A stretch of DNA of 41,212 nt from a virus. The position numbers and the translations under genes are program-made. The stretch covers positions 1 to 41,212 of IMG/VR virus record IMGVR_UViG_3300042294_002782; one strand, given 5' to 3'. The notes below the pieces were generated by a model. That model saw only the letters and a program-made list of their open reading frames with translations, was not told the origin of the DNA and did no database searches. Positions 2,064-38,882 of this stretch are shown here, in pieces. Positions within the stretch are counted from its first letter, which is position 1, and the number at the start of each line of letters is the position of its first letter.

Positions 2064-2560
2064 CTTCGCTTTGGGCGGAAGGACACTCAGCGTCTCAGAT
2101 CGCTAACGCGCTTGCGGCGCAGTTCGGTGTTCGCCGTTCTAGAAACAGTTGCATTGGGAAAATCCACCGTCTCGGACTCGCACGGCGCGCTACACCATCA
2201 CGGCCAGCAAGGATCACGGTTCGCACCGTTCGCGCTAAGCCCGCATCGACGATCACCCGCGCGCCGCGGCTCAATCCCGTGCGGATGCCGACGCTCTCCG
2301 AAGATCGCCAGCTCGCAAAGCTGCTGCCGGCGCTTGGCCCTGAACTGACCAAGGCGCCAGACGGCCTCTGCAAGTTCATCCCCGGCGACCCGCTCATTGA
2401 CGCCAGCATTTGCGGCCGCGCCACCGGACACGGCCCGTACTGCGTCCAGCACATCCGGCTTTGCTACGAGCCGTCCAGCAAGAAGCCGCGCGTCCGCTCT
2501 GAGCGCACGGACGAGAAGCGCCGCTGGCTGCGCGCACTTGAGCGCGAGGTACGGGCGTGA
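2009..2560 (+). CDS. gcrA-like: GcrA-family cell-cycle regulator homolog (183 aa)
   Basis: GcrA is an alphaproteobacterial sigma-70 cofactor that activates promoters carrying CcrM-methylated GANTC sites. Residues 10-60 show its N-terminal HTH signature: WTEQQVAKLTSLWAEGHSAS, then SQIANAL, then IGKIHRLGLA. A variable linker follows, and near residues 120-150 the C-terminal cysteine/histidine module (CKFIPGDP, then ICGRATGHGPYCVQHIRLCY) that contacts RNA polymerase in the cellular protein. Start ATG 2009 has AGGGGAGGA upstream. It overlaps the HNH gene and couples by GTGA to the replication gene. Probable role: redirect host transcription or tune phage promoters to host cell cycle; family is clear, target is inference. 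Confidence 0.85.
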   Translation: MLRQAYLQEWTEQQVAKLTSLWAEGHSASQIANALAAQFGVRRSRNSCIGKIHRLGLARRATPSRPARITVRTVRAKPASTITRAPRLNPVRMPTLSEDRQLAKLLPALGPELTKAPDGLCKFIPGDPLIDASICGRATGHGPYCVQHIRLCYEPSSKKPRVRSERTDEKRRWLRALEREVRA

Positions 2561-3426
2561 GCTGGGAGCTAACAGGCCTCGTCTCGTCCAAGGTGATCGG
2601 ATCGCCCGTCAAGCGGCTTGTGCTGCTGACGATGGCCAGCCGCGCCAACGATGACGGGACAGGCATCTACGCCAGCCTGCAAACGATGGCGCGCGACTGC
2701 GAATTAAGCCGCGCCACGGTCAAGCGCGCGATCAAGGATTTGGAGGAGGCCGGGCTCGTCAAACAGGTCGGCACGCGACCCTGCGCCAACGGTCACACCA
2801 ACGACTATTCGATATCTGTAAGGCGCATTACGGCGCTCCCAGACATCAAAAAGAACCGGGGTCAGGCTGAACCGGGTGCAGAGAGAACCGGGGTCACAAA
2901 GCCTAACCGGGGTCAGGCTGAACCCGGGTCACAGTGTGAACCCGGTTCAGAGCGACCCCCCACCCGGGTCACAGTGACCCCCAAACCTATCCTAGAACCT
3001 AGTGTTGTTGTTGTTGCTAAGGGCGCGGGCGATTTCAAATTGATGGTCAAGGAGGCCCAGGCGCGAGCCGGGGCGGCCTGTAACCTCACCAGCGGCCACG
3101 TCCACCACGTCGCGGACCTTCGCCGCCTCATCGACGCGGGCTGCGATTGGGAGGCCGATGTGCTCCCGGCCATCGACGCCCTCTCAGCGGGCATCATCGC
3201 CCGCAAAGCCAAGCCGATAAATTCCTGGGCTCATCCCGGCCTCGTCGACGCCGCGACCACGCTGCGCGATCGCCGCCTTGCCGGGCTGCCCGCACCAACC
3301 AAACCAACGGAGCGAACCAATGGCCGAGCCAGCGCCGAACGAGACGCGTGGGACAGCGTTCTTAGCGAGATGGAGGGCGATGCAGCCGCTCGAACAAGGG
3401 CGCCCGTGGCGCTGGGGGGTAGCTGA
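2557..3426 (+). CDS. Winged-helix phage replication initiator (O-like, 289 aa)
   Basis: Probable origin-binding replication protein. Residues 15-75 form a winged helix of the HTH_36 kind (YASLQTMARDCELSRATVKR, then IKDLEEAGLVKQVG). The middle, about residues 95-145, is a low-complexity linker with repeated NRGQAEPG-like peptides, which are the translation of DNA repeats that look like iterons. The C-terminal third has a helical domain that could contact the helicase or its loader. This architecture, DNA-binding head plus origin encoded in the gene's own middle, is that of lambda O. Start is GTG 2557, overlapping the previous stop as GTGA. The next gene starts inside its 3' end. Confidence 0.75.
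   Translation: MSWELTGLVSSKVIGSPVKRLVLLTMASRANDDGTGIYASLQTMARDCELSRATVKRAIKDLEEAGLVKQVGTRPCANGHTNDYSISVRRITALPDIKKNRGQAEPGAERTGVTKPNRGQAEPGSQCEPGSERPPTRVTVTPKPILEPSVVVVAKGAGDFKLMVKEAQARAGAACNLTSGHVHHVADLRRLIDAGCDWEADVLPAIDALSAGIIARKAKPINSWAHPGLVDAATTLRDRRLAGLPAPTKPTERTNGRASAERDAWDSVLSEMEGDAAARTRAPVALGGS
2853..3020 (+). repeat. Iteron cluster and AT-rich tract, candidate replication origin
   Basis: Inside the initiator gene, copies of a core close to AACC(C)GGG(G)TCA occur at about 2854, 2870, 2886, 2905, 2921, 2939 and 2962, several as the longer unit AACCGGGGTCAGGCTGAACC (2854-2873, 2905-2924). The last ones include the palindrome GGTCACAGTGACC (2967-2979). Immediately after comes a stretch of lower GC (2980-3020) with a GTT trinucleotide run, fitting a DNA-unwinding element. 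Arrangement equals iterons plus AT-rich region in lambda ori. The repeats are seen; origin function is inferred. Confidence 0.65.
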
Positions 3427-18754: not shown

Positions 18755-19401
18755 CGAACATCGGCACGCTGCAAACTGCGGTCGAGAGCTGGCTTGAGCG
18801 CACGTTTGACGACTCGCTGTTCCTCGAATGGGCCAATGACGTGGCCGACAAACTGACGAACGGCGTGATGAGCCCGGACGGCAAGACGTGGTTCATGCAG
18901 CCGGTGCGGGTGCGTTCGATGGAGACGCAAGGCACGATCACGACCACCAGCGCCGTGGGCGCGCTGCCGGCGTCATGGCTTGAATTCAAGCGGATCTGGA
19001 TTGATGCTTCGGACGGCTCGGGCAAGGACCTGATTTACACGCCGCTCCGCCAGTTCAAGACGGACCCGGATTCAATCGCAACCGGCACGCCGCAGAAGTA
19101 CACGATCGACGGCGACAATCTCTATGTGGCGCCTACGACCGACGCGACGCTTCAGGTGACGTATTACACCAAGCTCGGCGCGTTCACGGGCGACAGTTCG
19201 ACGGACGACATACTGACCAACCATCCGGGGCTTTATCGCCAGGGCGTCATTGCCGAGGCGTGCGACTGGATGGCCGATTTCGAGCGTGCCAATGTGGAGC
19301 GGTCCAAGATGTTTGCGCAGGCCAATGGTTTGACCGCGATGGAGCGGCGCGCGCAGTCGAGCGGGTCTATTCTGGTCGCGCGTCCAGGGAGCGTCGCCTA
19401 A
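18745..19401 (+). CDS. Head-tail adaptor, P22 gp4-like (218 aa)
   Basis: Helical N-terminus (TLQTAVESWLERTFDDSLFL, then EWANDVADKLTNG), a central beta-domain (FKRIWIDASDGSGKDLIYTP, then YVAPTTDATLQVTYYTKL) and a C-terminal helix (YRQGVIAEACDWMADFERAN) form the pattern of portal-binding tail accessory proteins in short-tailed phages, which assemble as a ring under the portal. No lysozyme motif is visible (P22 gp4 has muralytic activity). Returning to virion genes here shows the glycan cassette is an insertion into this operon. Confidence 0.7.
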   Translation: MAITNIGTLQTAVESWLERTFDDSLFLEWANDVADKLTNGVMSPDGKTWFMQPVRVRSMETQGTITTTSAVGALPASWLEFKRIWIDASDGSGKDLIYTPLRQFKTDPDSIATGTPQKYTIDGDNLYVAPTTDATLQVTYYTKLGAFTGDSSTDDILTNHPGLYRQGVIAEACDWMADFERANVERSKMFAQANGLTAMERRAQSSGSILVARPGSVA

Positions 19402-19889
19402 TGGGTTTCTTAAGCCGCATCCTAGGCATCGTGAATGCCGAGCCGCCGAAGATGATGCCCGCCGCAGAGCCGCATCAGTTTCAGTTCCCGATGGGTCCGG
19501 GCGGCGTGACGGAGGATCCTGCACCGTGGGCGCGTGCTCCAGTGACGCTGCCCGATGATCTGGAAAACAAGCTACGCGGCGTGCCGTTTTCGTCGGTGGT
19601 GGCGCAAGGCGGCGACATGGCACCGTCTAGCTCTAGCTACAACGCGGTCGGGCCAGTGCGCGGCATGGAGCCACTAAGCGCGCCACAAATGCCGATGCCG
19701 TCATACGTGCCGCGTCCTGATCCCGAATTGGCGGCACTCCTGTCGCGCTCGAACGATCAGTTGGACTACTACCGCCGCGAGGGTGAGCAAGATTTGGAGC
19801 GCCTGCGCGAACAGCGCGACCGTTACAACAGGCGAACGGGCGCGCTCGAACGCCAGCGCCGGGGCGGCACTGGCGGCGGCGGCTACTAG
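19401..19889 (+). CDS. Hypothetical virion-associated protein with MGFLSRILG start (162 aa)
   Basis: TAATG overlap with the adaptor gene. The N-terminal MGFLSRILGIV resembles the starts of the products at 23312, 24761, 25403 and 25729. The middle is proline- and methionine-rich; residues 108-155 form a charged helix (PDPELAALLSRSNDQLDYYR and RLREQRDRYNRRTG), ending in a glycine run. Such helix plus low-complexity proteins in this zone are likely minor virion or ejection components. Confidence 0.6.
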   Translation: MGFLSRILGIVNAEPPKMMPAAEPHQFQFPMGPGGVTEDPAPWARAPVTLPDDLENKLRGVPFSSVVAQGGDMAPSSSSYNAVGPVRGMEPLSAPQMPMPSYVPRPDPELAALLSRSNDQLDYYRREGEQDLERLREQRDRYNRRTGALERQRRGGTGGGGY

Positions 19890-20071
19890 TCGGCGCAATA
19901 GTAAACAGTCGGCCCATCTGGGCCACGCTCTGAAACGAGCTTGGCGGGGTCTTCGCAAAGCACGGACGGGCCGAGTTCTTCGCTAGCGGCTGGCGCCTCC
20001 AAGACAGGCGGCGGTGACGGTGGTTGCGGGCTGCACGCGGACAGCGCGACGATGATGAAAATGCGGCGCAT
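19886..20071 (-). CDS. Small lipoprotein (61 aa)
   Basis: Reverse-strand gene within the forward virion operon. Signal peptide MRRIFIIVA with lipobox LSAC (10-13, lipidated C13), then a proline-rich stretch and a short globular end with two further cysteines (VLCEDP, YYCAD). GGAG stands 8 nt before ATG 20069-20071. It lies downstream of the membrane protein gene and its terminator. Outer-membrane or periplasmic anchoring makes receptor masking or superinfection exclusion plausible, as with other phage lipoproteins; this is inference. Its 3' end overlaps the preceding forward gene by 4 nt. Confidence 0.7.
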   Translation of the reverse strand: MRRIFIIVALSACSPQPPSPPPVLEAPAASEELGPSVLCEDPAKLVSERGPDGPTVYYCAD

Positions 20072-20083
20072 GGTTGGCGCTCC

Positions 20084-20118
20084 AAAAAGAAGCGGCCCCG
20101 CACGTTAGCACGGGGCCG
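20084..20118 (-). terminator. Intrinsic terminator between membrane protein and lipoprotein genes
   Basis: In the leftward direction, CGGCCCCG (20118-20111) and CGGGGCCG (20100-20093) form a perfect 8-bp stem with a 10-nt loop, followed by CTTCTTTTT. It stands after the 222-residue gene and 13 nt before the lipoprotein start, so it would make the lipoprotein the less expressed distal gene. Confidence 0.65.
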
Positions 20119-20123
20119 GTGAG

Positions 20124-20792
20124 TTACTTAGTGATGACGAGGCGGGGCTTGGCGGCTTTCGCAGCCTTGCGCGCCTTGCGGGTCGCGGCGGCTTTCTTGC
20201 CGCGCTCTTTGAACATCAGCGCCATCCGCTCTTCTTGCGTGATGGGCGCAGGCACCCGGAACTTCTCGGCCGCGAAGTTGAGGAGGCCGAGGAGCACGAG
20301 TGCGAACCAAAGCTCACCGTCAAGCGGGCTCAAGTTCGCGTTCGTGGGACGGACCAATCGGCGAGCGGCCTCTTGGATTTCCCAGGAGTCCACCGTTTGC
20401 TCCGAGATCGTCAGGCTGGCTTGCGAGGCAAGCGCCTGATCGACTTCGTACGCCGGGGAAGCGTGGTAGGCGTCCCAGGCGGTCTGATCGTTGTGGAGCT
20501 TCACTGCCGACCCGAAGAAGAAAACGGGAAAGCAGAGAAAGGCGATCGCGATGAGGCGAACGATGCCGGCTTGTTTGCGAACGCTGGCGCGCTCGTCGTT
20601 TTTCATTTGGCCGATGAGCGTGAAGCCCAGAGCGGCGAGGATCGCGCCGAGGATAGTGATTGCCGCAAACTGGACGCCCTCAATCGGCGTGGCTTGCGTC
20701 TCGTACGCGAACAGGGCGCTTTTGCTCTCCACGGAGAGGATGAGCACCCACAGGCTGACGGTGATCGCCGCCTGCTGGGTTTGGACTTTCAT
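20124..20792 (-). CDS. Polytopic membrane protein of an inserted (moron) cassette (222 aa)
   Basis: Three clear transmembrane helices at about 40-63 (AAITILGAILAALGFTLIG), 77-97 (LIAIAFLCFPVFFFG) and 160-176 (LWFALVLLGLLNF), plus a weaker one near 9-22. A loop of about 60 residues lies between the third-last and last helix, and the C-terminus is very basic (KKAAATRKARKAAKAAK). AAGGAA precedes the ATG. A strong promoter (TTGACA/TATACT) with an operator in its spacer drives it, divergent from the RHH gene. This isolated, self-regulated, reverse-strand setting is typical of lysogenic-conversion genes. Function unknown. Confidence 0.75.
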   Translation of the reverse strand: MKVQTQQAAITVSLWVLILSVESKSALFAYETQATPIEGVQFAAITILGAILAALGFTLIGQMKNDERASVRKQAGIVRLIAIAFLCFPVFFFGSAVKLHNDQTAWDAYHASPAYEVDQALASQASLTISEQTVDSWEIQEAARRLVRPTNANLSPLDGELWFALVLLGLLNFAAEKFRVPAPITQEERMALMFKERGKKAAATRKARKAAKAAKPRLVITK

Positions 20793-20821
20793 GGTTGGTT
20801 TCCTTTGCTAACCATGAGCCA

Positions 20822-20872
20822 AGTATAGCGTGTGCTATACGCTTGTCAATGACGTATAGCGTGTGCTATGCG
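20822..20872. promoter_or_regulatory. Divergent promoters with two 18-bp operators
   Basis: Operators GTATAGCGTGTGCTATAC (20823-20840, perfect arms) and GTATAGCGTGTGCTATGC (20854-20871, one change) are 31 bp apart, about three helical turns. Leftward promoter: TTGACA (20844-20849), 16-bp spacer, TATACT (20822-20827), a near-consensus match with its spacer occupied by the first operator. Rightward: TTGTCA (20843-20848) and TATGCG (20867-20872), the -10 within the second operator. The RHH protein encoded just to the right is the obvious binder. Confidence 0.75.
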
Positions 20873-20881
20873 GGGTGCATT

Positions 20882-21076
20882 ATGGCAAAAGCACCCAAAA
20901 CGCCGGTTTCTGTGCGGTTATCCACAGAAGAGTTAGAGCTGCTGGAGCGCGTCGCTGAGCGAAGCCACGGCGGCAACAAGACGAAGGCCATCGTGGAGAG
21001 CTTGCAGCTCCGCGAGGCCAAGCGCGAATTAACGAAGGAGCAATTGCTTGCTGAATTGGAACGAAGGCTCAGGTGA
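20882..21076 (+). CDS. Ribbon-helix-helix regulator, CopG/Arc type (64 aa)
   Basis: Residues 7-42 show the fold: TPVSVRLSTEELELLERVAE (DNA-contacting strand VSVRL, then helix A), the turn HGGNKTKAIVESL (helix B). The rest is a charged helix. Arc/CopG dimers bind inverted or tandem half-sites in the major groove, consistent with the two palindromes directly upstream. ATG 20882 is used; in-frame upstream codons would lie within the operator. Likely a repressor of itself and of the divergent membrane protein operon. It could also be the antitoxin part of a toxin pair, but no toxin-like neighbour is recognisable. Confidence 0.8.
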   Translation: MAKAPKTPVSVRLSTEELELLERVAERSHGGNKTKAIVESLQLREAKRELTKEQLLAELERRLR

Positions 21077-21237
21077 CGCCAGAGTTTACTGAGCGCACCG
21101 ACGCGCGCGGGCGGCTTATCATCTGCCGCATAGGCGACCACGAAGGCCGCGCGCGCGTGTTCAGCGCAGGCGAGCAAGACGCGAAGGACCGCGCAGAAAA
21201 GCAAGCGCGCGAAAAGGCGGAACGTGCCGACAGTTGA
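21073..21237 (+). CDS. Small charged protein coupled to the RHH regulator (54 aa)
   Basis: GTG 21073 overlaps the RHH stop as GTGA, and the stop lies 14 nt inside the gp10-like gene. The first half could form beta-strands (GRLIICRIGDHEGRARVFS), the second is a highly charged helix. No ribosome site of its own, so translation depends on coupling. May belong to the inserted cassette. No family recognised. Confidence 0.5.
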   Translation: MTPEFTERTDARGRLIICRIGDHEGRARVFSAGEQDAKDRAEKQAREKAERADS

Positions 21238-22687
21238 CTTCGGCCCGTGGGAGCCAGACCGCGCCGACATCGGCCCGCCGCTGCATCTCTACACGGCCAA
21301 GAATTGCGTACCGGTCAGCGACCACTACCACCCACTGCAAACGCTGACGGCAACGACCGGCGCGCTGACGGCCCGCTGTATTGGCGTTATCGCAGTGCGC
21401 GACATCGACAACGCCGCACACATGTACGCAGGCGACGCCACCAAGCTTTACGAGCTTGAGGCGGGCACGTGGACAGATCGCAGCAAGGTTGGCGGCTATA
21501 CGACGGCAACAAGCACAACGCGCTGGCGCTTTGCCACGTTCGGGGATCGCGTCATCGCCACGAACGCGCTGGACCCGATCCAGTACATTGATGCTAGCAC
21601 TGCGGCGACGGCGTTCGCCGATCTGGGCGGATCGCCGGGGCTGGCCAAGTACATCGCCACGTATGGCGAGTTTGTGTTTCTGGGCGCGCTCGGCACGAAC
21701 GGCATGAGCATCAAGTGGAGCGCGATCGGCAACAGCGCGGGTTGGACGGCGGGTGTCAACCTCTCCGACGAGCAAGAGTTCGCGGACGGCGGCAACATCA
21801 CCGGCTTCGCAGCCACGCAGGCCGCGCTCTACGTGTTTCAGGAAAAGTGCATTCGCCGCGTTCTGTTCGTGGGCGGCGATGTCATCATGCAGATTGACAA
21901 GCTGGTAGAGAAGATCGGCTGCATTGAGCCGAACAGCCTCGTTCAATATGGCCAGGTCTGCTTCTTCCTCGATGAGGACGGCTGGTACATGTGGGACTTC
22001 CAATCCCAGCCTGTGCCGATCGGGCATGAGAAGTTCGATGATTGGTTCATCGAGGACTCAGAGCGCACGGCGTGGCCGTATATGTCGGTGGTGGTTGATC
22101 CGCGCCGGCGTGTGTTCGCCGCGGGCTATGTGAGCACGGGCAACGCCACGACGCTGCCGGATCGGGTGCTGTTCTTCAACTACCAGCTCGGCCGCGCAAC
22201 TTATGCAGACGTGAGCCACGAAATCCTAGCGCCGTCGATTGCGCTGGGCGTCACGCTCGATGACCTAACCGGCGATCTGGATAACGATTACAACATCAGC
22301 TTCGATGACCCTTACTATCAGGGCGGCGCGTTCTATTTCGGGGCGTTCACAAGCGAGCATAAGCTTGGCGGCTTCAGCGGCGCGAACATGGAAGCGACAT
22401 TCCAGACCGCAGAGCAGGCGCTTTACCCAAGCCGCCGCACTGGCATTCAGTGGATCAAGCCGCTGACCGATGCGAGCGGAGCGACGGCAGCGGCGGGCTC
22501 GAAGGTGAAGCCGTCCGACGCGATCAGCTTTCAAAGCCAAGTGGCGCAGCAAGCGAGCGGGCGTTGTCCGCAGCGTGGCGCGGATGGGTTTTATCACGCC
22601 GTTAAGGTGGTCATCCCGTCCGGTGAGACGTGGACGTATGCGCGCGGGTTTGAGTTTGAGCCTGCGAAGGCGCGGGGCGTGCGTTGA
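21224..22687 (+). CDS. Tail hub / DNA stabilization protein, P22 gp10-like (487 aa)
   Basis: Large beta-propeller-like protein of the short tail. PLQTLTATTGALTARCIGVI, TTRWRFATFGDRVIATNALD (with DPIQYID), and repeated blade-like segments such as ENGWYMWDFQ-type (here DEDGWYMWDFQSQPVP, then GHEKFDDWFIED) follow gp10-like packaged-DNA stabilization proteins that close the tail after packaging. RRVFAAGYVS, RVLFFNYQLGRAT and the final WTYARGFEFEP also fit. Start GTG 21224 has GGCGGA upstream. Confidence 0.75.
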   Translation: MPTVDFGPWEPDRADIGPPLHLYTAKNCVPVSDHYHPLQTLTATTGALTARCIGVIAVRDIDNAAHMYAGDATKLYELEAGTWTDRSKVGGYTTATSTTRWRFATFGDRVIATNALDPIQYIDASTAATAFADLGGSPGLAKYIATYGEFVFLGALGTNGMSIKWSAIGNSAGWTAGVNLSDEQEFADGGNITGFAATQAALYVFQEKCIRRVLFVGGDVIMQIDKLVEKIGCIEPNSLVQYGQVCFFLDEDGWYMWDFQSQPVPIGHEKFDDWFIEDSERTAWPYMSVVVDPRRRVFAAGYVSTGNATTLPDRVLFFNYQLGRATYADVSHEILAPSIALGVTLDDLTGDLDNDYNISFDDPYYQGGAFYFGAFTSEHKLGGFSGANMEATFQTAEQALYPSRRTGIQWIKPLTDASGATAAAGSKVKPSDAISFQSQVAQQASGRCPQRGADGFYHAVKVVIPSGETWTYARGFEFEPAKARGVR

Positions 22688-32329: not shown

Positions 32330-33384
32330 TGGGTCTGTTCAAGGAAATACTGACGCGCGATGGATTTGCCGCGCGCTACCATCGCATTGATCCTGAGAGC
32401 GTGCGTCACGAAGCGGACAGCACTCACTTCGATGTGTTGTCCTACGCGGTCGAAGATCAGGCTATTGGCGGCTACTGGCTTGAGCGCACGCCCGAAGTGC
32501 TGGCTGGCCACATCACGCAACTGCCCGAGCTTTATGCCGGTCTGCGTGCGCTGCCGCGCTATGCCGGGGCCGGTGATGTTGAGGCATCACCAGAGGCCGC
32601 AGCGTTGCTCGCAGCGGCTGGCTGGAAGCCGCATCCCAAGTGGGGCGTTTACACGCGCGGCACGCTCGTCATGGGCGGCGATCTACAGGGCGGGTTTCAC
32701 GTCAAGGATTGGGGCTTAGACATTCACGGCCCCGACACGCCAGACACGGCAGAAGAGGCGGCAGCGTGGCTTGTGCAGCGTTTCGCGCCCGTTGCATCCG
32801 CGCCCGAACCGGAGCAGATTCCAGCGCATGAGACACACGGCGAAACTGGCGAAGCTGAAGGCCGAGAAGAATCGGCAGAGCCGATGGCTCCAGAAGATGA
32901 CTCTGGCGCAATCGATCTATTCCATCCCGTCTCCGGCGGAAGCGGAATGGGTGAGGCTGAGGGAGACGATGCGTCCGACATTCTCGACGCCGACTACCTC
33001 GAAACCAACCAGCTAGACGACTACTCGCTCGGGGCCGAGATTGATGACGCGGAGTCCGAAGCGTCCGGCGCGTTCATCTTTGGCGACAATCTGGACCAAA
33101 AGCGCACGGCGGCGATTGGTCTTGTGGTGCAAGCCGCCATCGTGCGGATGCCCGCGCCGATCGACTACGCCGTCCTAAGCGAGCTGCGCAACTTCACGCT
33201 TGGCGTATCTGAGGGCCGTTGGCCGGACGATCCGGCGCAGCGGGCAGAGCTGGACGTGCTGGAAGCGCGAGAGCGCCGGCGCCGCGCCATCGAGACGGCG
33301 CGCGACGATAAGACGGCGTTCCTCGTCTCCGCGACGCGCGAGCAGATCGAGGCGTTCGACCCTGAGAGCGATTGGCCTGCATGA
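32329..33384 (+). CDS. Hypothetical acidic protein (351 aa)
   Basis: Residues 1-135 form a globular domain (GLFKEILTRDGFAARYHRID, VLSYAVEDQAIGGYWLERTP); 155-255 is an acidic, probably disordered linker (EGREESAEPMAPEDDSG, DDASDILDADYLETNQLDD); 260-351 is a helical domain that contains LGVSEGRWPDDPAQRAELDV, which resembles the tail-assembly chaperone-like helical ends of other phage proteins. It lies between the spike and the lysis genes. No lysozyme, amidase or peptidase motif could be found, although this is a place where an endolysin could be expected. Confidence 0.6.
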   Translation: MGLFKEILTRDGFAARYHRIDPESVRHEADSTHFDVLSYAVEDQAIGGYWLERTPEVLAGHITQLPELYAGLRALPRYAGAGDVEASPEAAALLAAAGWKPHPKWGVYTRGTLVMGGDLQGGFHVKDWGLDIHGPDTPDTAEEAAAWLVQRFAPVASAPEPEQIPAHETHGETGEAEGREESAEPMAPEDDSGAIDLFHPVSGGSGMGEAEGDDASDILDADYLETNQLDDYSLGAEIDDAESEASGAFIFGDNLDQKRTAAIGLVVQAAIVRMPAPIDYAVLSELRNFTLGVSEGRWPDDPAQRAELDVLEARERRRRAIETARDDKTAFLVSATREQIEAFDPESDWPA

Positions 33385-33758
33385 CCCCGCCGCGCCCTGA
33401 AGGCTGGCTCCACCGCGCGCCGCGCCCGCTCGTCATGTGGCTGGCCGTGCTCATGGTGGTGTGCGTCATCGCCTTCTTCATCGCCATCGGCACAGCCATC
33501 GCCACGGCGTTCCAGCGCGCCGCAGAGACGGGCCAGCCGGTCCCGGACATGAGCGGGGGCCTTGCCGCCGTCATGACGGGCCTCGCGGCGCTCCTGCCTG
33601 CGCTGGCGTCGTTCTGGCAGATCTTCAACCAGCGCCACATCGAGCGCAGGGACGAAATCGCGCGCGGGGGTGCGCCTAGCCCTTTTCCCCAAGCCGCGCC
33701 GCCGCCCGAGCCTTCGCCAACTGGCGGGCTCGTCAACAACGAGGCCCTAGAACAATGA
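33381..33758 (+). CDS. Holin-like membrane protein (125 aa)
   Basis: ATG 33381 overlaps the previous stop. Two hydrophobic helices, at about 18-42 (LVMWLAVLMVVCVIAFFIAI) and 62-83 (AAVMTGLAALLPALASFWQIF), followed by the charged motif NQRHIERRDEIARGG and a proline-rich tail. Two helices, a charged C-terminal part and the position directly upstream of the spanin genes suggest a holin of class II type. Alternatives are a membrane anchor protein without lytic function. Confidence 0.55.
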   Translation: MTPPRPEGWLHRAPRPLVMWLAVLMVVCVIAFFIAIGTAIATAFQRAAETGQPVPDMSGGLAAVMTGLAALLPALASFWQIFNQRHIERRDEIARGGAPSPFPQAAPPPEPSPTGGLVNNEALEQ

Positions 33759-34546
33759 CCCTACACCCCGCTCTGGCCCGTCTAGCGCGGGGTGCTACCC
33801 GGCTCTACTGGGAGACGCCCAAGCGGCTCATCCTGGGCGCGCGCGGCTATCGTTTCGAGGGCGAGCAAGAAGCGCACGCCGAGCAGTTACGCGAGACGCA
33901 AGTGTCGCTCTCGCTCATGGCCACGGCGAGCGACGACCCCGAACACATCCGCATGGCGTCGGAGATCGAGCACGGCGCGGAAAACCGCCTGACCGTGCTC
34001 TTGGGCAAAGCCCGGCTCACGATGGAAGAGAAGGGCGAGCGCGACGCGATCCAGCGGGCCATCTCGGCGCGGCGGCAGAGCTTTGCGCCTGCGGCTGTTG
34101 TTGCGCCGCGGCGCTTCCTGCCCGCGCTGGCCACCGGCCCCATGCTGGGCGTGCTCCTAAGCCCCTGGACGTGGCTCGTCGCCCTAGGCGCGTTCTGCGT
34201 GCTTCAGATGGGCCTGAAGGAGCGCGTGGAGAACCAGCGTGACGAGGCGCGGCGCGAGCTCGAGCAAGCGCGCGAGAGCCTGGATGCGTCCGTGGCGCTG
34301 ACTGAGCGCCTACAACGCGACATCAACAACGCCAACCGGGATTCGGCCCAGACGGCGGCAACCATCGAAGCAGAGAGAGCGCGACGCCTAGCGGCCGAGC
34401 GCGAAGCCCGGAGGATCAGAAATGAAATCGAGCGTGCGCGTGCTGGCGCTCCTAGCATCGACTACGGCTTTGGGAGCGTGCGGGACGATGGAGCGGTTCC
34501 GCCCGGCTCCGGTGGTGGTGACGCAGCCAGTGATCGTCCCGGCTGA
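33755..34546 (+). CDS. Rz-like: Inner-membrane spanin, Rz-like, with long N-terminal domain (263 aa)
   Basis: A transmembrane helix at about 133-153 (LGVLLSPWTWLVALGAFCVL) is followed by a periplasmic coiled coil (157-230; RVENQRDEARRELEQARESL, then LQRDINNANRDSAQTAATIE), the i-spanin layout. The next gene, an outer-membrane lipoprotein, starts inside this one in a different frame, the hallmark of Rz/Rz1 pairs. Unlike typical Rz proteins with the helix at residue 5-25, this one has about 130 cytoplasmic residues in front. The C-terminus ends in a Gly/Pro-rich tail. Confidence 0.75.
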   Translation: MTLHPALARLARGATRLYWETPKRLILGARGYRFEGEQEAHAEQLRETQVSLSLMATASDDPEHIRMASEIEHGAENRLTVLLGKARLTMEEKGERDAIQRAISARRQSFAPAAVVAPRRFLPALATGPMLGVLLSPWTWLVALGAFCVLQMGLKERVENQRDEARRELEQARESLDASVALTERLQRDINNANRDSAQTAATIEAERARRLAAEREARRIRNEIERARAGAPSIDYGFGSVRDDGAVPPGSGGGDAASDRPG

Positions 34547-34766
34547 GTGCCGCCTTGATCCGGTGGAGCCCCGCGAGGTTTCTGAGCCGTCTCTCCTTCC
34601 TGAAAGTGGCGTCACGCCGATGGAAGTCGCCCGCAACTCGCTAGCGAACGCGCGGCTGGCTTTCCTGTTCTGGCAGGACAAGGCGTCAGCCGAGCGCGAG
34701 GCGCGCGAGACGAACGCGGCGACGCAAAGCGCGTGCGCGGCGTGGGCGCGGAGGCAGGATCAATGA
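34422..34766 (+). CDS. Rz1-like: Outer-membrane spanin lipoprotein, Rz1-like (114 aa)
   Basis: Signal peptide with lipobox LGAC (17-20, lipidated C20). The mature part is proline-rich near the start (RPAPVVVTQPVIVP), then helical (NSLANARLAFLFWQDKASAE). The gene lies 125 nt inside the Rz-like gene in another frame, with GGAGG before ATG 34422. O-spanins bridge to the i-spanin and fuse inner and outer membranes in the last step of lysis. Lipobox and nested position make this assignment strong. Confidence 0.85.
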   Translation: MKSSVRVLALLASTTALGACGTMERFRPAPVVVTQPVIVPAECRLDPVEPREVSEPSLLPESGVTPMEVARNSLANARLAFLFWQDKASAEREARETNAATQSACAAWARRQDQ

Positions 34767-37820: not shown

Positions 37821-38882
37821 TCACAGCGCTTCCTCGTTGACATAAATCGCAGACATCGCCTCAGCGTCGCCCTCAGACCAGCCAAGCACTTGCGCGATGC
37901 GGCGGCTCGATGCGCCCTGTTGCGCCAGATGCGTTGCAGCCGAGCGCCGAAGCCCATGCAGGCGACCGGAAACCCCCAGCCGCTTCAACTCGATGTTAAC
38001 CGCGTGCGCCATGCCGTCCACGCTCCACGCGCCGCCATGCGCGTTGCGCAGGATCGGGCCTTCGCGTTGCGGGCCAATCTCTTGCAGCACAGCACGGAGA
38101 GGGCGCGTCAGCGGGATCACGATGCGGCGGCCGGCGCGTTCGCCCTTGGACGTGACAAGCCGGATGACGCCCGCCTGCCAGTCCACGTTTGTCCACGCAA
38201 CACGGCACAGATCGGCGCGGCGTAAGCCGGTGTTGAGCGCCACGAGCAGGATGCGGCGGACGCCGGGGCGGGCCTTGGTCAGGCGCTCCAGATCCAGCAG
38301 CGACCACGCATCTTGCGGCGGGGCCTTGTAGGCGTTCTTAAAGTCCTTGGTGGGCTCGAACCCTGACGGCAGGCGCGTCTCCCGTGGCCGCTCTGGCGCA
38401 CGGCCCCAGGCTGCGACAGACGACAGCGCCGACTTCGCATGATCACGCGCCCGCTTGCCGTGGGCCGCTTCCATGTCGCGCAGCCATTCGCTAACCGCGT
38501 CCATCGTGACTTCAGCCGCAGAGCATGAGCCGAAGCGATCGCGCACGCGGTCAAGCCAAACGCGCTTCGTCTTGCGGGTCATGGGCTTAAGCGCCGCGTA
38601 ATCGGTGCTTGAAACGTAATCCACGATAACTCGCCCGAACTGTCCTATAGCGGGGCGCTTATCCTTGGCGCTGGCCCATGCGCGTGCGAGCGCTATCACA
38701 GCCTCGTCCGTGGCTTCCTTGGCCTCAGCCTCAGCGCGGGTCGCGCCGTCATAGACCGCGATCCGCGGCCCGCCGCGCCAGGCATACCAATAGATCGCCC
38801 AGCGCCCGCCGGCGCGTTCGTGGGCTTGCCTATGGGCGCCGCGCATGACGCCTCCCGATCCGTTCCTTAAGCGCTTGGACAT
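37821..38882 (-). CDS. int: Tyrosine site-specific integrase (353 aa)
   Basis: Integrates the phage at the host attachment site and, with a helper, excises it. N-terminal arm-binding region with AWRGGPRIAVYDGATRAEAE (35-54), core-binding domain (about 80-165), catalytic domain with R221 in NTGLRRADL, K246 in TSKGER, H309 and R312 in HGLRRS, W335 in the usual His/Trp position (VLGW), and nucleophile Y347. All catalytic positions are present. The 3' end points to the tRNA-Ser half at 37153. It overlaps the end of the upstream gene by 53 nt. Confidence 0.92.
   Translation of the reverse strand: MSKRLRNGSGGVMRGAHRQAHERAGGRWAIYWYAWRGGPRIAVYDGATRAEAEAKEATDEAVIALARAWASAKDKRPAIGQFGRVIVDYVSSTDYAALKPMTRKTKRVWLDRVRDRFGSCSAAEVTMDAVSEWLRDMEAAHGKRARDHAKSALSSVAAWGRAPERPRETRLPSGFEPTKDFKNAYKAPPQDAWSLLDLERLTKARPGVRRILLVALNTGLRRADLCRVAWTNVDWQAGVIRLVTSKGERAGRRIVIPLTRPLRAVLQEIGPQREGPILRNAHGGAWSVDGMAHAVNIELKRLGVSGRLHGLRRSAATHLAQQGASSRRIAQVLGWSEGDAEAMSAIYVNEEAL

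Follow-up and report, generated by a model that had tools for sequence, protein, structure and literature searches.

The closest described parallel to the locus analysed here is the immI/ant moron of phage P22, which comprises sieA, orf59a, mnt, arc and ant and lies between the late genes 16 and 9 (PMC8022706, PMC2629481). SieA is a protein of 162-164 aa with three segments and the motif FxRYPxEAxxFNK (PMC10883804). In the P22 record sieA is antisense, the mnt and arc/ant promoters are divergent, and the Arc operator sits inside the Pant spacer, TTGACA-TGATAGAAGCACTCTAC-TATATT; sieA itself has a separate promoter of its own. Exclusion lipoproteins form a second term of comparison, with T5 Llp and the phage Cor proteins as examples. 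Ltp of TP-J34 is a further one (PMC3952083).

The locus belongs to a virus record of 41,212 bases, the whole of which is referred to here as the window. It encodes a SU10-type major capsid protein, a portal, a terminase and an adaptor, as well as a gp10-like stabilisation/nozzle protein (21224-22687), a tyrosine integrase (37821-38882) and a NinB homologue. Because the integrase accompanies SU10-type capsid, portal, terminase and adaptor genes, the gene content identifies the window as a temperate podovirus-like phage. The best matches of the integrase among GenBank phages are ~27-30% identical and belong mostly to phages of alphaproteobacteria (Rhizobium, Mesorhizobium, Paracoccus), and a search of GTDB genomes with the integrase found no host; an alphaproteobacterial host, drawn from matches as weak as these, is only a guess. 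Elsewhere in the window, iteron-like repeats (AACCGGGGTCA and variants) at 2854-2976 lie inside an O-like replication initiation gene (2557-3426) and are likely the replication origin. The product of 784-1026 has a weak YdaS-like (Cro-like) match and may regulate the choice between lysis and lysogeny. The lysis region (33372-34766) contains a small membrane protein with a weak holin-like match, an Rz-like spanin (33755-34546) and an embedded Rz1-type lipoprotein (34422-34766). A distant, integrase-bearing podovirus, EBPR podovirus 2 (L026), has a similar gene order and carries a lone reverse-strand gene (21030-21359) after its main late genes.

Genes and control region of the cassette

Three ORFs make up the cassette, as described in the original prediction made on this DNA: a lipoprotein gene (19886-20071, reverse strand, 61 aa), a membrane-protein gene (20124-20792, reverse strand, 222 aa) and a gene for an RHH-like (MetJ/Arc-type) putative autorepressor (20882-21076, forward strand, 64 aa). 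The cassette had been drawn as far as 21237. It ends at about 21076, and the ORF at 21073-21237 (forward strand, 54 aa) is a core late gene that lies near the gp10-like gene in cassette-free relatives. At the other end a variable late gene (19401-19889, forward strand) has a stop codon that overlaps the lipoprotein stop (CTAG); it accompanies the cassette in 4/4 contigs, its relatives sharing 42-55% amino acid identity. A search for the three-gene set elsewhere, suggested with the original prediction, found it complete in four IMG/VR contigs besides the window. One of them (L005) does not differ from the window in this region and was left out as independent evidence; the other three (L006, L007 and L008) are independent.

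Purifying selection acts on all three cassette genes: among related contigs, dN/dS (NG86) is ~0.08-0.22 in the membrane-protein gene and 0.07-0.28 in the lipoprotein gene, and it does not exceed ~0.05 in the RHH gene. The membrane protein, 91-98% identical at the amino acid level in relatives, has approximately four hydrophobic segments by eye, two of which exceed a cut-off of 1.6 on the Kyte-Doolittle scale, an acidic ~65-residue loop and a Lys/Ala-rich basic C-terminal tail (46 residues, with 15 K/R and 3 D/E). Together these features fit an N-in, C-in inner-membrane protein. No significant match was found for it in families, GenBank phages, plasmids or GTDB genomes; matches to Claudin_2 (E 0.002, below the cut-off) and CARF_TM (E 0.006) were read as composition effects, and its AlphaFold model (pLDDT 45) is too poor for a fold search. 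The lipoprotein has the lipobox LSAC with Ser at +2, and its lipobox Cys and a further pair, Cys39 and Cys59, are invariant; the gene is present in 4/4 cassette contigs, and searches of families and GenBank phages gave no significant match. Likewise, the RHH protein has no significant match in families or GenBank phages, and the plasmid search was also empty. Against PHROG it shows a weak Arc-like repressor match (E 0.07), and its counterpart in L007 has weak matches to TraY, HicB and RelB. The model of the RHH protein (pLDDT 66) contains helices at residues 15-28 and 31-46, the strand is not modelled, and Foldseek with this model returned no RHH structure and no good PDB match. PADLOC gave no match of any weight on the cassette.

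The membrane-protein gene is preceded by a reverse-strand promoter (20822-20849) with a -35 TTGACA (20849-20844), a 16-bp spacer and a -10 TATACT (20827-20822). As had been predicted, it is near consensus: 11/12 positions are matched, and it is the sole promoter-like site in 2.4 kb, compared to 0.3 in shuffles. The promoter is kept in G001 and G003, reads TTGACA-17-TATCTT in G002 and occupies the same place in four contigs. A probable promoter for the RHH gene (20843-20872, forward strand; -35 TTGTCA, 18-bp spacer, weak -10 TATGCG, TG upstream) matches 8/12 consensus positions, which is weak when taken alone, and is found at the same position in 4/4 contigs. The two divergent promoters overlap at one near-palindromic -35, TTGACAA/TTGTCAA. 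Each harbours a putative operator of 18 bp. Operator 1 (GTATAGCGTGTGCTATAC, 20823-20840) extends over the greater part of the spacer and takes in five of the six bases of the membrane-protein -10; operator 2 (GTATAGCGTGTGCTATGC, 20854-20871) has the corresponding position, over spacer and -10, in the RHH promoter. The two are near-identical, the palindrome having 7-bp arms that flank four central nucleotides (GTGT), and no other good copy exists in the whole record. The palindrome by itself is less striking (206/2000 shuffles) than the exact 16-nt repeat, which was reached in 0/2000 dinucleotide shuffles. The presence of a second copy at the RHH promoter, 31 bp from the first, thus bears out what had been noted from the sequence. 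The earlier description of the first palindrome as the promoter spacer stands in part: the palindrome is there, but the spacer measures 16 bp and the palindrome overlaps the -10. Because the 31-bp spacing corresponds to ~3 helical turns, both operators would face the same side of the DNA.

A predicted intrinsic terminator (20118-20093, reverse strand; 11-bp stem and T run) is located between the membrane-protein and lipoprotein genes. It is kept in 4/4 contigs, with another stem sequence in L008, and the ribosome-binding site of the lipoprotein gene (GGAG) directly follows its T run. The promoter scan over 2.4 kb found no other promoter for the lipoprotein gene, and, because the terminator precedes this gene, the lipoprotein is probably made by terminator read-through, at a lower level. 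The view of the two reverse-strand genes as one simple operon is therefore abandoned, since a conserved terminator separates them. The unit does bring a strong terminator, as had been proposed, but it stands between the pair rather than after it, and none follows the RHH gene in the window, where the RHH stop overlaps the next late gene at 21073. Complete independence from lytic transcription is not supported either, as the RHH gene of the window runs straight into the late operon. In L007 and L008 a terminator is present after the RHH gene. A terminator hairpin followed immediately by GGAG and the next start codon is a recurrent arrangement (window 20071-20118; after the RHH gene in L007 and L008). 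A terminator-like site at 19925-19910 was dropped, as it is not kept in L007.

Mobility of the cassette and exchange of its regulator

The cassette forms a discrete module, ~1.2 kb of DNA, that occurs at two sites. DNA homology between L008 and the window covers exactly 19888-21079 at 82% identity, beginning at the stop codon of the lipoprotein gene and ending just beyond that of the RHH gene, and within the stretch compared the flanks of L008 show no DNA alignment to the window outside these limits. In the window and L006 the cassette lies next to the adaptor gene; in L007 and L008 it is found between a homologue of the 19401-19889 gene and tail-fibre genes. Empty sites are also represented. 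In L032 homology to the window ends at 19408 and restarts at 21074, the cassette is absent from that site, and a short unrelated gene joins the adaptor, 54-aa ORF and gp10-like genes; L030 and L031 are also without the cassette. On these alignments, the slot in the late operon is a variable region. Genes with an ART-PolyVal (ADP-ribosyltransferase) domain are seen in or near the slot in three cassette-free contigs (L030, 4256-5014; L031, 3870-4340; L032, 3346-3963). Several slot genes, including the one at 19401-19889 in the window, have short hydrophobic starts that resemble one another (MGFLSRI, MSLLSRA, VGLLNRL), perhaps a common packaging or ejection signal.

The features expected of a moron can be followed individually. 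A promoter of its own, TTGACA-16-TATACT, is found in the same place in 4/4 contigs, the break in L032 (19408/21074) together with the cassette-free L030 and L031 gives the unit an inserted look, and, as for a terminator at the end, a strong one follows the membrane-protein gene but precedes the lipoprotein gene, with none after the RHH gene in the window and one there in L007 and L008. The idea of a self-regulated, autonomous moron-like unit is sustained: each of the two divergent promoters belonging to the cassette contains an operator, the unit moves as a block between two genomic sites, relatives lack it at the same site, and regulator and operators have changed together.

The L007 contig connects the regulator to the operators. 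Its membrane protein is 95% identical to that of the window and its RHH protein 37% identical, and where the window has its two GTATAGC operators L007 carries two copies of TGGCTAGCCG (2/2000 shuffles), while the same -35, CGCTTGTCAA, is retained between the exchanged operators. We link the RHH protein to the operators because the gene and both sites have been exchanged together; this is one exchange event only, but the pattern is the one expected of a cognate repressor-operator pair. In L008, by comparison, the RHH protein shares 94% identity with that of the window and the arms of the operators persist; the centre of operator 1 is changed and the outer arm of operator 2 is partly degraded. 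On this comparative evidence we hold the regulatory reading, a self-repressed mobile cassette, to be strong and very probably correct.

Likeness to P22 immI and possible functions

How does the cassette compare with the P22 unit? The original prediction regarded it as a composition with no described counterpart, yet immI with sieA is a close architectural parallel. Both belong to temperate podoviruses and lie among virion genes within the late operon, in a region that is variable or missing among relatives (PMC2629481, PMC8022706). Both contain an antisense membrane-protein gene, RHH regulators (a putative one in the cassette) and overlapping divergent promoters, and in both an RHH operator extends through a promoter spacer up to the -10, a likeness of position only in which the cassette operator is putative. 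The cassette has one RHH gene instead of two, it alone adds a lipoprotein, and its RHH protein would control the membrane protein directly, unlike the arrangement of sieA with its separate promoter. No ant-like antirepressor gene was found next to the cassette, where core late genes follow the RHH gene, and an Rfam search of the cassette region revealed no RNA, including a sar RNA of the P22 type. BLASTP produced no alignment of the cassette RHH protein with Arc or Mnt at E values up to 100. SieA and the membrane protein are alike in being phage-encoded, multi-pass, likely located in the inner membrane and antisense in the late region; they differ in that SieA has 162-164 aa and three segments, and the membrane protein 222 aa, ~4 hydrophobic segments and a basic tail (PMC10883804). 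Their BLASTP comparison (E 0.65 over 9 residues) amounts to no similarity, and the SieA motif was not seen in the membrane protein. The cassette lipoprotein resembles Llp, Cor and Ltp in being small, phage-encoded and equipped with a signal peptide, but it is encoded by a second gene behind a terminator, and in the comparison with exclusion lipoproteins nothing reached significance (E 0.35 for the Cor PHROG). As judged from these searches, the proteins of the cassette are new, and its layout closely resembles that of P22. We consider the cassette to be built, and probably to work, like the P22 immI unit; because similarity to SieA, Arc and Mnt is lacking, we do not file it as a member.

Based on this likeness, we propose that the cassette is a mobile, self-repressed moron in the late operon of a temperate podovirus, organized on the plan of P22 immI/ant and with exclusion as its likeliest role, a proposal that we place at about an even chance as a whole. 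The RHH protein would bind one operator in each of the back-to-back promoters and repress both its own gene and that of the membrane protein. In a newly entered cell that contains no RHH protein, both proteins would be made in a burst, and in the lysogen their level would then settle at a low, constant value. The membrane protein would reside in the inner membrane and the lipoprotein, arising from read-through, would be anchored in the envelope, and related short-tailed phages might then be excluded at the stage of DNA entry, as they are by SieA. In the window phage, late transcription would run in the sense direction through the RHH gene and antisense through the other two, so that these two may be shut off late. 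Superinfection exclusion as the purpose of the cassette, argued by analogy with SieA, is our best guess, put at slightly less than an even chance. Further points weigh against the proposal: autorepression may keep expression in the lysogen low, the joint expression of membrane protein and lipoprotein is in question because a terminator lies between their genes, and no more than four contigs in addition to the window contain the cassette, L005 among them.

In an alternative reading, the cassette acts during infection rather than in the lysogen. Autorepressed promoters are unrepressed at first in a naive cell, and an early burst of membrane protein from the near-consensus promoter might protect the infecting genome or alter the host envelope, as counter-defence or takeover, before the RHH protein stops it. 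The RHH gene of the window, with no terminator before 21073, is also placed for a boost by late transcription. However, in L007 and L008 the gene has a terminator of its own, so a late boost that carries on downstream is no general feature, and the searches showed no resemblance to known proteins for counter-defence or takeover. We regard a role at the infection stage as unlikely. Morons often carry traits that concern the host envelope or the lysogenic state, and the absence of a known relative for any cassette protein would also suit another envelope trait of the lysogen (conversion, fitness or stress) with no phage exclusion. This appears less likely still, given that in position, antisense direction and control by an RHH protein the cassette corresponds to the P22 unit containing sieA. 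A lysis accessory, in which the lipoprotein would serve as outer spanin of the Rz1 kind and the membrane protein as holin or inner spanin, is highly improbable in spite of the size, lipobox and proline-rich start that the lipoprotein shares with Rz1: it has no overlapping Rz partner and is not needed as a spanin because the phage possesses its own Rz/Rz1-type pair in a separate lysis region (33755-34766), and moreover the cassette is antisense to the late operon, its lipoprotein has a conserved Cys pair and relatives do without it. RHH proteins are common antitoxins that autorepress, but an RHH antitoxin paired with a membrane toxin is just as improbable, since the genes are divergent, no toxin match was obtained with PADLOC or NCBIfam, and the exchange of the RHH protein in L007 next to a membrane protein 95% identical to that of the window argues against binding between the two, because two proteins that bind each other would scarcely tolerate such a change.

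What are the implications of exclusion by a self-repressed cassette? A bolder version, to which we assign a low probability, is that the membrane protein and lipoprotein constitute a two-protein envelope barrier of a new family, which is kept while the RHH-operator specificity is exchanged between phages. Phages with differing RHH types would then switch the barrier on in each other's lysogens, and the cassette would in effect serve as a second immunity system with swappable types. The swap in L007 would supply a ready pair of regulator-operator specificities. If the exclusion proposal is true, the P22 plan of RHH-regulated antisense exclusion genes in the late operon would have emerged in, or reached, phages far removed from those of enterobacteria, using unrelated proteins, and the late-operon slot of podoviruses would be a place to seek unknown exclusion systems.
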